A stretch of 64,000 nucleotides of DNA from Leptolyngbya sp. CCY15150 (lineage in GTDB: Bacteria; Cyanobacteriota; Cyanobacteriia; RECH01): positions 186,001 through 250,000 of the forward strand of contig NZ_JACSWB010000278.1 of assembly GCF_016888135.1 (NCBI RefSeq). Reading direction: 5' to 3'. The notes under the pieces were generated by a model. The model saw only the letters and a list, made by a program, of their open reading frames with translations. It had not been told where the DNA came from and searched no databases. Shown here piece by piece: positions 33,576-60,605 of this stretch. How positions within the stretch are numbered: the first letter of the stretch is position 1; every line of letters starts with the position of its first letter. The position numbers and the translations under genes were made by a program.

Positions 33576-33932
33576 ATGCAAATTTGGACGGTTTGTTTTC
33601 TGATATTTTTCCTGGCTACCCAGGTGTACCAAATGGTGAAAGAGGTCTCGCTGCCGCTGCCGTTGGCGATCGCTGGGGGCATTTTGTTGGCGATCGCCTC
33701 CAATATCCAGCGCAGGTCAACGCTGTCCTCGTCTTCATCCGTGACGCCATCTGTGACACCGCCTGTGACGCCATCTGTGACGCCATCTGTGACGCCATCT
33801 GCACCACCGGCTAACCCCAGCTCTGAAACGATGTCGCTCCGATCTGCCGAGACCTTAGCCCATCCGCCGATTCCACCTTTCTCAGTGCCTGCGTCTAACC
33901 CTTTCTTCCCTCGCCCTCAGGAAAAATCCTAG
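33576..33932 (+). CDS. Small membrane-anchored protein with VTPS repeats
   Basis: 118 residues. N-terminal hydrophobic segments (IWTVCFLIFFLATQVYQM and LPLPLAIAGGILLAIASNI) are followed by a Ser/Thr/Pro-rich low-complexity tail containing five VTPx units. Function unknown. It lies 80 bases before lexA, but LexA has its own promoter in that gap. The repeat part may vary in length between strains. Confidence 0.65.
   Translation: MQIWTVCFLIFFLATQVYQMVKEVSLPLPLAIAGGILLAIASNIQRRSTLSSSSSVTPSVTPPVTPSVTPSVTPSAPPANPSSETMSLRSAETLAHPPIPPFSVPASNPFFPRPQEKS
33741..33800 (+). repeat. Five-unit 12-bp coding minisatellite
   Basis: GTGACGCCATCT repeated five times, with three changes in unit 2. Each unit encodes VTPS (or VTPP). 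It lies in frame in the small membrane protein gene. Confidence 0.9.
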
Positions 33933-34012: not shown

Positions 34013-34624
34013 ATGGAAGCCCTGACAGAAGTCCAACAACAGTTATACGACTGGCTGATCGACTACATCCGCGAGAACCAGCATTCCCCATCCATCCGTC
34101 AGATGATGCGAGCCATGGGGCTGCGATCGCCCGCTCCTATCCAGAGTCGTCTAGAGCACCTGCGCAACAAAGGGTACATCGACTGGACGGAGGGCAAAGC
34201 CCGCACAATTCGCATCCTCAAGTCGCTGAATCCTGGCGTGCCGATTATGGGTGAGATCGCCGCTGGGGGCTTGATTGAACCCGTTACCGACGACGCAGAA
34301 GCAGAACATCTCGACATTTCCGGCGTTCAGCTCAAGCATAAAGACTACGCTCTGCGGGTCACGGGCGACAGTATGATCAACGCCATGATCGCCGATGGAG
34401 ATATCGTGATCATGCGCCCAGTGTTTGAACCCGATCGCATCAAAGATGGCACCATTGTGGCCGCTCGGGTAGAAGGCTTTGGCAACACTCTCAAGCATTT
34501 TTATCGCCGCGATAACCACGTCACCCTAGAAGCAGCGAACGACAACTACAAGCCCATTCATGTACCCGCCGATGCTGTACAGTTGCAGGGTGTTTTAGTT
34601 GGGGTTTGGCGGCAGTATCTCTAA
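34013..34624 (+). CDS. lexA: LexA repressor with intact self-cleavage residues
   Basis: 203 residues. N-terminal winged HTH (SPSIRQMMRAMGLRSPAPIQSRLEHL). The cleavage region GEIAAGG has an Ala-Gly bond at 84-85. Catalytic Ser120 is in RVTGDSM and Lys161 in GNTLKHF. Some cyanobacterial LexA proteins have lost these residues and do not run an SOS response; this one keeps all of them. A consensus LexA box in its own promoter supports an SOS-type circuit. Its 3' end overlaps convergent rnhB by 30 bases. Confidence 0.96.
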   Translation: MEALTEVQQQLYDWLIDYIRENQHSPSIRQMMRAMGLRSPAPIQSRLEHLRNKGYIDWTEGKARTIRILKSLNPGVPIMGEIAAGGLIEPVTDDAEAEHLDISGVQLKHKDYALRVTGDSMINAMIADGDIVIMRPVFEPDRIKDGTIVAARVEGFGNTLKHFYRRDNHVTLEAANDNYKPIHVPADAVQLQGVLVGVWRQYL

Positions 34625-55781: not shown

Positions 55782-57770
55782 TTGATAGCATTATCATTCG
55801 CCTTGAAGTTTTTTCGGTTCAACCATTCAGCACCTATGCTGCTCGGGCTACTCGCGGCAGCCATTGGGGGGCTGACCGTTGGAGTTCCCACTGCCCAAGC
55901 ATCTTCTGATGTCTTGCCATCCAGTTCTGAAGCTAATGTGACGGAAGCGATCGCTGATCCTCTATCCTCGCTTGAGGTTGATCCGATCACGGATGTTGCT
56001 GATGCTGATACGACTGTTGATACGACTGATACGACAGAAGCGATCGCCGATCCTCTGGCATCCCTTGAGGTTGGCTCTGGTTCTGAAGCTGAAGCCGCTG
56101 ATCTCACCCTTGCTGATGAAGCATCGGTGGATTCAACCTCTGTCAATCGTCTAGCGGATGCTGAGACGGATGTAGAGCTAGCCGATAGCCAACCTGACGA
56201 CTTTCAGCTCGATGACGCTGCTCTACTGCCTGAGGATGTAGACGCGCTCACGGTTCTTGAGATTCACGAAATCGGCATCGACCAAGACAGCATGGCTCAG
56301 GTTACCTCCGTAACCCAGCTATCCGATGTACGTCCCACCGATTGGGCTTACCAAGCGTTGCTAGGGCTCATTGAGCGGTATGGATGTATCGCCGGATATC
56401 CTGATGGCACCTTTCGTGGCAACCAACCCCTGAGCCGGTATGAGTTTGCCGCCGGCCTCAATGCCTGCCTGGAAAGTGCAGCTCTCACTATTTCCCCCGA
56501 TGATGCAGACACGTTCTCTCGCCTTCAGCAAGACTTTGCAGGTGAGTTGGCTAGTTTGCGTGGACGGGTCGATTCCTTAGAAGCTCGGGTCTCGACGCTA
56601 GAGGCTAACCAGTTTTCCACCACCTCGAAGCTCTTTGGGCAAGTTGTGGTTGGGGTGCAGGGACGCAACGACTATGAGTTTTCCCAGTTTCGAGATGTGC
56701 TGGACAATGAAAGCGAACCTAACCTCGTTACCAATGTTCAGCTCAACCTACTCACTCAGTTTGATTCCCGCAGTATTCTCCTCATCGGTATGCAGGGTGG
56801 CGATGGCAACACCAGCAATACGCCTGGGCTCAGCGACTTTACGCGCCTAGCCTACGAAGGTGATACCGATAACGATATTGAACTCAGCGACATTAGCTTC
56901 CGGCACCTGCTGACCCGAGATATCGCTCTGATCGTTGGGCCGCGGGGTGTCAACGCCGTCAACACCTTCCGGGGTATCAACCGGGTTGAAAGTGCTGGGT
57001 TTGGGCCTCTGTCGCGTTTTGCTCAGCGTAACCCCATTATCGGCATTGGCTCTGGCGGTGGTGGCGTGGGTCTGGATTGGCAGCTTGCTAACTGGGCTAG
57101 CTTCCAAGCCGTCTATTCGTCGAGTTCCGCATCCGATCCTAACAATGGATTTTTTGGTGGAGATAACGGCATCACAACCATCGGTGGACAGTTGGTGCTA
57201 TCTCCTAGCCGAGATATTGATATCTCGGTGCAATATCTCAATTCCTACTCACCCTTTGGTCGTCTCTTTAGTGGCGTAGGTGATGACCAGGTTGCTGTCA
57301 TTGACGGGTTAACGGGGCGTGCTCCTATTCAAACCAATGCCTTTGGTACAACCCTGGAATGGCGAGTGGCAGAATCCCTCACCGCAGGTGGCTGGGTTGG
57401 CTACACGAACTCGAACCTGCTTGGGGAAAGCGGAGATATCGAAACGTTCAACTGGATGGCATTCCTAAACTTCCCTGATTTCTTGGGTGAAGGCAACTTG
57501 GCTGGCATCTATGTGGGACAACCACCGAAGATTACCTCTAGCAACCTGCCGCTGAACCGCAATATTCCGTCTTTGATTAATGAAGGAGAATTTCCTTCTG
57601 GGGAAGGCGGTCAACCCTCCACCACAACGCATGTGGAAGCGTTTTATCGCTGGCGGGTGAGTGACAACATCTCCGTGACGCCTGGGTTTATCTTGCTCTT
57701 TAACCCAGGACACAATTCTGACAACGACACCATCTTTATTGGCGCGTTGCGCACAACGTTTACGTTCTAG
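55782..57770 (+). CDS. SLH-domain outer-membrane porin (cyanobacterial SOMP/iron-uptake porin type)
   Basis: 662 residues. A hydrophobic signal region (LLGLLAAAIGGLTVGVPTAQA) is followed by an unusually long acidic Asp/Ala/Thr linker (about 41-175). An SLH domain follows (about 180-235, VRPTDWAYQALLGLIERYGCIAGYPDGTFRG), then a short coiled coil (ELASLRGRVDSLEARVSTLEAN) and an OprB-like beta barrel ending TTFTF. The SLH and coiled coil span to peptidoglycan; the barrel forms the channel. A TTG start is chosen because GAGGAG lies eight bases before it; the next ATG would remove part of the signal region. Confidence 0.88.
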   Translation: MIALSFALKFFRFNHSAPMLLGLLAAAIGGLTVGVPTAQASSDVLPSSSEANVTEAIADPLSSLEVDPITDVADADTTVDTTDTTEAIADPLASLEVGSGSEAEAADLTLADEASVDSTSVNRLADAETDVELADSQPDDFQLDDAALLPEDVDALTVLEIHEIGIDQDSMAQVTSVTQLSDVRPTDWAYQALLGLIERYGCIAGYPDGTFRGNQPLSRYEFAAGLNACLESAALTISPDDADTFSRLQQDFAGELASLRGRVDSLEARVSTLEANQFSTTSKLFGQVVVGVQGRNDYEFSQFRDVLDNESEPNLVTNVQLNLLTQFDSRSILLIGMQGGDGNTSNTPGLSDFTRLAYEGDTDNDIELSDISFRHLLTRDIALIVGPRGVNAVNTFRGINRVESAGFGPLSRFAQRNPIIGIGSGGGGVGLDWQLANWASFQAVYSSSSASDPNNGFFGGDNGITTIGGQLVLSPSRDIDISVQYLNSYSPFGRLFSGVGDDQVAVIDGLTGRAPIQTNAFGTTLEWRVAESLTAGGWVGYTNSNLLGESGDIETFNWMAFLNFPDFLGEGNLAGIYVGQPPKITSSNLPLNRNIPSLINEGEFPSGEGGQPSTTTHVEAFYRWRVSDNISVTPGFILLFNPGHNSDNDTIFIGALRTTFTF

Positions 57771-58270: not shown

Positions 58271-60508
58271 ATGAAAAAGAGTCACACGACACCCTATTTC
58301 TTGGGTCTAGGGTTACTGGCTGGCAGCCTAGCGATCGCTCCAGTCGCAAATGCACAAATTCAGGTTGAAGGTGGAGAAATTGGCGGGCAGGCCTCTTTCT
58401 TTGTGCCGGAAGTTGATCCAGAAGGCAACGTTCGTCTATTTGACGTTGGTATTCAAACCCTACGCCTTGAAACTACCAGCGGCGTTACAACGACCTCTAT
58501 CTTTACGCCCGATGCCGCTGCCTTTGATGATGCCAACAGCGATGGCCTTCCCAACGCAGGGGATACCGGCACATTGCAGGGTGGCCTAACAGGTATTGCT
58601 TTCACCTCTGAAGGAACACCGGTTCCATTTAGCGGTCGCCCTACCCTGCTGAACTTCACGCTGGATAGCTTCGATACCAACATTGGGACTCTAGACGGTA
58701 CCCTGCTGCGTCCAACTGAAGCTGGTACTGCCCCCTTAGTTTTCTTGCCTGGCATTGATAGCAATGCAATCACTTTAGTTGAAGACAGTGGCATCGAAAA
58801 CATCGGTGGACAGCTTCAGCTTGGCGACTTTGAAGCATCTGTCGATGACGGGATTATTGCTCTTCCCTCTTCTTTCCAATTCCGTGAGAGCCTCAGCGAA
58901 GTTCCGGTTAACCTCACCCCCACCTTCCTGTCTCGCCGAGTCAAGTTTGAATTCTCCGGCAGTGATGTTATTCCGTCCGTAGGTACAGACTTCAACTTTT
59001 TGCCTGAGGAAGTTGCTGTTGATGATGATGATGATCTCGACGATGATCTCGATGATGATCTCGATGATGATCTCGATGATGACCTCGACGACGACCTTGA
59101 CGATGATCTCGATGATGACCTCGACGATGACGATGATGATGATGACGATGATGTAGGTTTTATCCTCAATCAAGGCATTCGGTTCGTGGGAGCGGTTAAT
59201 GACCGTTTCCGCATTCAGAGCATCGGAACGAGTAGCTCTCAGGAGTTTCAAATTCGTGGCGAGTTAGGTTCTGTCGATATCTCCATCGATACCGAAGATG
59301 CTGATATTAAGCGCGACGATGTTCTTTCAGAAACAGGTGTCACCTCCTACCGGATTCGTGGCGAAAGTGACGGGGTCTTTAATTTCTACAACTCGAACCT
59401 GTATGGTTTTGCCAGCACGGGCGAAAGTCGCACTGATTTCAAATTTGAGCAAGGCAGCGGCAGCGATCGCCTTCGTCTAGAAGGACGCAGCGAGGGCCCA
59501 GTCAGCTTCTATGCTTTTGCTGGTGCTCAAGATGTGTTGTTTGACTTTGACGAAGTGAACTTCACCGATGATACCGAGTTCATCTTCATCGATACCAGCA
59601 CTGGTTCTGACTTTACGTGCAACTTCTGTGGCGCAAGTCTAGAAACCAACCGCCGCATTGTTGTTGAGAACAACGTTATCCAGGTTGGTCAGCCTATCAC
59701 TGTGAGCGTGATCACGCCTCCACCAACACCGACAATTGTTGGACAACAAGGCAACTCGGTGACGGTTCAGACCTCTCAGGTGACAACCACGTCAATTACG
59801 TTCAATGTTGCGTCAAGTGTTGGTACTTCACTGTTTAGCCTATGCGGCCCCTCTGAAACTGCTATCTACCAATATGGTTACCTAGGAGGCTATCGGTACC
59901 TATCGTTCGCTAATCTGAGTACTCAGTACCAACAGGTTGCTACGAGTGGTACTCGTATTGAGGTTGTGAACCAAGGACGCGATCGCTACTATGTGGTGAC
60001 TCGCCCTAGTTCTTCTCCTGGTTTAGGTCTGGGTCTAGGCCGTGAAGCTCTGGTTGCCTACCAACAAGTGGGCCCCAGCGGACGCATCTTCCCTGGGCTT
60101 GTCGGTCTACGTGAAATCGCTGTCGATGATCTTGACCTCGATGAGGATGAGTACGAAGTCGATGATGATCTAGATCTCGATGATGATCTGGATGACGACG
60201 ATCTAGACGATGATCTGGATGACGATGACGACGACGATGATGATGATGATGACGACGACGAGGAAGATGGGGATGACGACCTAGATGATGATCTAGACGA
60301 CGATCTCGATGATGACCTAGACGACGATCTCGATGATGACCTAGACGACGATCTCGATGATGATCTAGACGACGATCTCGATGATGACCTAGATGATGAT
60401 CTCGATGATGATCTAGACGACGATCTCGATGATGACCTAGATGATGATCTCGACGACGACCTAGATGATGATCTCGACGATGACCTAGACGACGGTCTTG
60501 ACAGCTAA
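58271..60508 (+). CDS. Secreted protein with two Asp/Leu-rich (DLDD)n blocks
   Basis: 745 residues. It has a signal peptide (MKKSHTTPYFLGLGLLAGSL...VANA, cleavage likely before QIQVEGG). Residues about 25-250 are a beta-rich domain. Block 1 (251-294) contains only Asp and eight Leu at four-residue spacing. Residues 295-618 are a second beta-rich domain with Thr/Ser/Gly, two Cys-containing points (CNFCG, SLCGPS) and a Pro linker. Block 2 (619-745) is 127 residues almost entirely Asp with regularly spaced Leu, ending at the C-terminus. The whole is extremely acidic and likely binds divalent cations outside the cell or in the periplasm. I know no family for it. Confidence 0.85.
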   Translation: MKKSHTTPYFLGLGLLAGSLAIAPVANAQIQVEGGEIGGQASFFVPEVDPEGNVRLFDVGIQTLRLETTSGVTTTSIFTPDAAAFDDANSDGLPNAGDTGTLQGGLTGIAFTSEGTPVPFSGRPTLLNFTLDSFDTNIGTLDGTLLRPTEAGTAPLVFLPGIDSNAITLVEDSGIENIGGQLQLGDFEASVDDGIIALPSSFQFRESLSEVPVNLTPTFLSRRVKFEFSGSDVIPSVGTDFNFLPEEVAVDDDDDLDDDLDDDLDDDLDDDLDDDLDDDLDDDLDDDDDDDDDDVGFILNQGIRFVGAVNDRFRIQSIGTSSSQEFQIRGELGSVDISIDTEDADIKRDDVLSETGVTSYRIRGESDGVFNFYNSNLYGFASTGESRTDFKFEQGSGSDRLRLEGRSEGPVSFYAFAGAQDVLFDFDEVNFTDDTEFIFIDTSTGSDFTCNFCGASLETNRRIVVENNVIQVGQPITVSVITPPPTPTIVGQQGNSVTVQTSQVTTTSITFNVASSVGTSLFSLCGPSETAIYQYGYLGGYRYLSFANLSTQYQQVATSGTRIEVVNQGRDRYYVVTRPSSSPGLGLGLGREALVAYQQVGPSGRIFPGLVGLREIAVDDLDLDEDEYEVDDDLDLDDDLDDDDLDDDLDDDDDDDDDDDDDDEEDGDDDLDDDLDDDLDDDLDDDLDDDLDDDLDDDLDDDLDDDLDDDLDDDLDDDLDDDLDDDLDDDLDDDLDDDLDDGLDS
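59021..59152 (+). repeat. 12-bp coding minisatellite, block 1
   Basis: 44 codons encoding Asp with eight Leu at every fourth position, built from GATGATCTCGAT-like 12-mers. Leu is almost always CTC here. An opposite-strand Ser/Arg frame is a by-product. Confidence 0.95.
60125..60505 (+). repeat. 12/24-bp coding minisatellite, block 2
   Basis: 127 codons. From 60281 to 60499, 19 Leu codons occur at exact 12-base steps. From the second one on they alternate CTA, CTC, CTA, CTC, giving a 24-base higher-order unit. It shows repeated tandem duplication with strong conservation of Asp and Leu. Confidence 0.95.
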
Positions 60509-60564: not shown

Positions 60565-60605
60565 GTAAAAAACCGCGATCGCTCCTAGGGGCGATCGCGG
60601 TTTCT
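60565..60605. terminator. Bidirectional terminator with HIP1 stem
   Basis: AAACCGCGATCGC (60570-60582) and GCGATCGCGGTTT (60591-60603) are exact complements with an 8-base loop. Read on the minus strand it ends in TTTTTT and fits trpB; read on the plus strand it ends TTTCTTG. Confidence 0.85.

Follow-up and report, generated by a model that had tools for sequence, protein, structure and literature searches.

The gene under study lies on the forward strand of the window, by which we mean the whole stretch of 64,000 nucleotides of Leptolyngbya sp. CCY15150 that was analysed. The features of the locus are as follows.

55782-57770, + strand: SLH-OprB porin gene, directly upstream (Pfam OprB 5.4e-31, SLH 9.5e-08).
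58271-60508, + strand: gene for a secreted protein of a porin-linked family, 745 aa, with the ATG at 58271 and the stop at 60506-60508.
58271-58354, + strand: Sec signal peptide, read from the sequence, with predicted cleavage after ANA (aa 28; MKKSHTTPYFLGLGLLAGSLAIAPVANA followed by Q).
58358-59017, + strand: N-terminal all-beta domain, aa 30-249 (alignments A1 and A3; AlphaFold2).
58529-58564, + strand: candidate Ca2+-binding loop DANSDGLPNAGD, aa 87-98, with EF-hand/thrombospondin-3-like spacing.
59021-59152, + strand: acidic linker (block 1), aa 251-294, (DDDL)8 followed by D10.
59156-60124, + strand: middle and C-terminal region, aa 296-618, beta-rich by sequence (alignment A4).
60083-60109, + strand: near-invariant RIFPGLVGL motif, aa 605-613, where the tail begins.
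60125-60505, + strand: block 2 (aa 619-745), the acidic tail at the C-terminus.
60570-60603, no strand: perfect 13-bp inverted repeat made up of HIP1-like GCGATCGC, with flanking A and T runs.

An earlier note on this DNA had described the same reading frame, a signal peptide, two beta-rich regions and two Asp/Leu blocks of 44 and 127 residues, the latter ending the protein. We confirmed the frame and, by composition, both blocks, and the signal peptide, as read from the sequence, has the stretch GLLAGSLAIAP, which sequence comparison finds kept among relatives. The beta-rich character holds for the N-terminal domain, which AlphaFold2 modelled as all strands (mean pLDDT 77), while the model of the middle region was unusable (pLDDT 41). 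The N-terminal domain is also the best conserved part of the protein (alignments A1 and A3), and aa 296-618 are conserved only weakly (alignment A4). Searches for the fold of the N-terminal domain gave no confident PDB match with Foldseek (best E 0.025 with a TM of about 0.1) or VIA-align (best Z 3.7). For the mature protein we computed a pI of about 4.05 and about -168 charges at pH 7, about -36 of which remain when both blocks are removed.

Block 1 consists of 36 Asp and 8 Leu (charge about -36), and block 2 contains 91 Asp, 26 Leu and 5 Glu (about -96 charges). The proposed Leu at every fourth position is found exactly in block 1 until the run of ten Asp and across aa 668-741 of block 2, though not in the opening of about 50 residues of block 2, where the spacing is irregular. 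Both arrays score far above chance in Tandem Repeats Finder (175 and 319). In block 2 the Leu codons alternate between CTA and CTC, giving a 24-base higher-order unit, which shows that duplication, too, has lengthened this block. An alignment of 26 units of 12 bases shows no change at any of the 208 first and second codon positions, and the third positions all vary among synonyms. Synonymous change is thus free and coding change absent, which points to purifying selection on the encoded peptide and substantiates the polyanion as a real, selected feature. It should be noted that duplication of the array copies its variants, so that the changes among units are non-independent events. An assembly error is ruled out as the source of the blocks, because the independent sister genomes G001 and G002 carry both.

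The earlier note further suggested that Leu every four residues could form a hydrophobic stripe on a helix. This fails on geometry; a spacing of four residues corresponds to 40 degrees per repeat of an alpha-helix, hence 18 Leu are spread evenly around it. The Leu resultant on an alpha-helix was 0.00 (18 Leu) and 0.12 (8 Leu), compared to 0.80 for a heptad control. An alpha-helical Leu stripe, a coiled coil and an amphipathic helix are all ruled out, as the period is 4.0 and these would need 3.5-3.75. The Leu residues could align on a pure 2-residue strand or on a 4.0-residue helix. At neutral pH, however, disorder is what one would expect of poly-Asp.

When 390 genomes were searched for DDD[L/F] arrays, six more genomes proved to have them, in unrelated proteins. 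In four of the six (L075, L076, L077 and L078) the DLDD/DFDD array lies in the central linker of a helix-turn-helix protein, expected to be cytoplasmic, whose N-terminal helix-turn-helix and C-terminal domains are conserved. Another array, (DFDD)n, ends a PPC-like protein (L074:1027-1557; E 0.0033, below the curated cut-off) as a convergent acidic tail, and the sixth is in another protein. The motif has therefore arisen repeatedly as an acidic linker, whether cytoplasmic or not. An ortholog of the helix-turn-helix protein is also found in the window's own genome (G000:C240:15019-15990).

No significant match to the 745-aa protein was found in Pfam, NCBIfam, PHROGs or the PDB sequences, and a literature search gave no description of the porin-linked family, in agreement with the earlier view, borne out by the empty Pfam and NCBIfam results, that no named family has this layout. 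When related genomes were searched with each folded region separately, clear homologues were detected for both, and a class-wide search with an alignment of the N-terminal domain found this domain in 39 of the 390 sampled genomes, some of the matches being distant or partial. Judged from sequence, the protein is a member of an uncurated cyanobacterial family, with an N-terminal beta domain, the FPGLVGL motif, a low-complexity tail and an SLH-OprB porin encoded directly upstream. Two distant N-domain relatives of about 490-510 aa (L055 and L056) adjoin the same type of porin; they carry an FPGL(T/S)G motif in mid-protein, have no low-complexity tail and form a second subfamily.

The acidic blocks are not a constant trait of the family, as homologues of both folded regions mostly do not have them; by the standard that the earlier note itself set, this largely counts against its interpretation. 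In the two sister genomes the folded parts are 95% and 81-86% identical to those of the 745-aa protein. The tail of G001 has ten DDDL repeats followed by VSDDSVDD units, and that of G002 (Leptolyngbya sp. DLM2.Bin15, locus L057) runs off the contig end. In DLM2.Bin15 the fourth position of block 1 alternates between Phe and Leu, so between members of the genus this position is kept as Leu or Phe while the length and letters of the flexible segments vary between close genomes. Plain acidification does not require that Leu or Phe be kept at every fourth residue. Within the family, only this genus shows long arrays in which every fourth residue is Leu or Phe, and only here is block 1 acidic; elsewhere it is missing, with neutral Thr/Gly repeats near the same site in two relatives. 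Beyond the near-invariant motif the tail is of low complexity; one clade and two further lineages have Asp-rich tails, and 18 of 27 scored tails are rich in Thr, Ser, Pro, Asn and Gly. The tail types outside the genus comprise Ser/Asp (L058), Ala/Asp (Kastovskya, L059), Thr/Pro, Asn/Ser/Thr, Gly/Thr and Pro/Ser, and Lys and Arg are nearly absent (26 in the 2438 residues of the 27 tails). Conservation hence extends to where the flexible segments lie and to their lack of positive charge, but to neither the acidity nor the Leu period, and the acid form is a lineage-specific version of a generic hydrophilic tail.

The porin link is strict. All 14 named family loci that extend far enough have a porin homologue immediately upstream in the same orientation, and in the complete genomes G020 and G189 trpB, a neighbour in the window, is far from the family gene, so the link is more than general gene order. 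From this synteny we infer that the 745-aa protein probably partners the SLH-OprB porin. The two genes are separated by 500 bases and may have separate promoters. Pfam finds SLH and OprB domains in the neighbour at 55782-57770 and neither of them in the 745-aa protein, which is thus a neighbour of a cyanobacterial SLH-OprB porin (a group that includes Synechocystis Slr1841 and Slr1908; PMC8707739) and does not itself belong to that group. In Synechocystis the SLH part of these porins is reported to bind peptidoglycan, the OprB part being the outer-membrane barrel (PMC8707739), and a partner would therefore most likely sit at the outer membrane. We also observed a long acidic low-complexity spacer between the signal peptide and the SLH domain of the window's porin (55782-56330); in most relatives with neutral tails this spacer is shorter and nearly neutral.

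To place the acidity of the tails we compared it with that of other proteins. In the tree of the N-terminal domain, 7 rows with acid tails, from five families, group in a single well-supported clade (100/98), and acid tails occur separately in L031 and L039. The barrel of BamA, encoded by an unlinked gene, has a net acidity of 0.030-0.064 in the 9 acid-tail genomes and of -0.018 to 0.024 in 15 others, with no overlap. Ignoring shared ancestry, the Spearman correlation of tail acidity was 0.73 with the N-terminal domain, 0.75 with the porin barrel, 0.80 with the BamA barrel and 0.69 with the porin spacer (12 loci). The spacer acidity is 0.16-0.26 in the acid clade (0.26 in the window's porin) and 0-0.09 in most others. 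The cytoplasmic TrpB shifts slightly (0.020-0.038 versus 0.013-0.028; Spearman 0.60, again ignoring shared ancestry). The tree offers two independent acid/neutral contrasts only. Both go the expected way, but with so few the co-variation could stem from shared ancestry, and the statistics are suggestive at best. L039 (G162) differs in the expected direction in both tail and BamA acidity from its near relative L038 of the same genus (G236).

Acidification of extracellular proteins is a familiar mark of salt adaptation. The habitat is known for few of the compared genomes: the nearest named relative, DLM2.Bin15, comes from an alkaline salt lake, CCY15150 was obtained from a North Sea beach (PMC8619395), and the terrestrial FACHB-321 (PMC8619395) has a neutral tail.

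Taken together, we favour the following explanation, to which we give about an even chance. The protein would be exported to the envelope and act together with the SLH-OprB porin of the neighbouring upstream gene, and its optional linker and C-terminal tail, both flexible, would serve as a disordered, hydrophilic, non-sticky spacer or brush free of Lys and Arg. Salt adaptation would have acidified these two segments along with other envelope proteins in a clade whose habitats are at least partly saline or alkaline waters, and slippage of the 12/24-bp unit would have expanded them to (DDDL)n in this genus. The layout resembles that of the Sdr/Clf surface proteins of staphylococci, whose stalks are low-complexity Ser-Asp repeats: here too a folded domain is joined to a long repetitive hydrophilic segment of variable length, and the relative L058 even has a Ser/Asp tail. 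Unlike in Sdr/Clf, the repeat ends the protein without a cell-wall sorting signal, the host is Gram-negative and the composition changes entirely from lineage to lineage.

The earlier note favoured a dedicated device for mineral binding or cation-triggered folding, in which the Asp blocks would hold divalent cations or carbonate nuclei. The charges of the blocks, the candidate Ca2+ loop in the N-terminal domain and the salt-lake source of the nearest relative speak for such a Ca2+- or mineral-binding surface protein, and mollusc Aspein and Asprich, Asp-rich biomineral proteins, likewise have very long Asp-dominated secreted segments. This likeness is compositional only, however, and the acidic part of our family is not conserved; a biomineralisation protein would be expected to have a conserved acidic domain tied to mineral formation, and most homologues here are neutral. 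As Leu at period 4 gives no helix stripe and helix-turn-helix proteins carry the same kind of array, the device finds no support and we regard it as improbable. With most tails neutral and their acidity tracking that of BamA, an unlinked gene, the pattern looks like salt tuning rather than a mineral-binding device; the broader proposal of an envelope-charge role is compatible with our data. If the family binds Ca2+ specifically, the N-domain loop DANSDGLPNAGD would be a better candidate than the tail. It lies between two predicted strands in a reasonably confident part of the AlphaFold2 model, and its EF-hand-like spacing is present in 17 of 28 homologues, without a Pfam match. EF-hand-like Ca2+ loops are known from thrombospondin type 3 and dockerin repeats, with which its DxNxDGxPxxGD pattern shares the Asp/Asn spacing, but here a single loop sits within a beta domain and the Pfam models are silent.

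Neutral slippage of a microsatellite, leaving the tail with no role beyond hydrophilicity, would account for the 12- and 24-bp units, for the alternating CTA/CTC codons as a sign of array expansion and for the differences in length and letters between close genomes. It is hard to reconcile with the invariant coding positions of the 26 units, the near absence of Lys and Arg over 27 tails and the acidity kept over five families of one clade, and we consider it unlikely. We are equally sceptical of a polyanion acting on the porin itself, with acid tail and porin spacer forming a layer rich in cations, either periplasmic or at the mouth of the pore, and of such a layer setting ion selectivity or blocking the pore at low salt. 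The strict synteny and the rise of spacer acidity with tail acidity fit this proposal, but BamA, which is unrelated to the pore, shows the same acid shift. Returning to the proposed salt acidification, we speculate, with some doubt, that the presumably disordered tail of this porin-linked family could be an evolvable charge module, in which fold and porin link stay fixed and the tail chemistry is rewritten with salinity and sets the ionic layer around the pore.

Across the homologues, fold and porin neighbour stay the same while the tail, probably disordered, is polyanionic in some and neutral in others; this natural series makes the role of tail charge and the link to salinity directly testable. 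The uncurated family is an addition to the outer-envelope proteins of cyanobacteria, a poorly understood group, and it cautions that striking Asp repeats need not signal mineral binding.

In the surroundings of the gene, a sigma-70 consensus scan found nothing, Rfam gave no hit near 58271-60508 and plasmid records gave no match. The inverted repeat at 60570-60603 lies between convergent genes, with trpB on the other side, and looks like a two-way terminator, although the terminator scan did not flag it. Elsewhere in the window, 5.5 copies of the 12-base repeat CATCTGTGACGC are found between ORFs at 33736-33801, just preceding a LexA-like gene at 34013.
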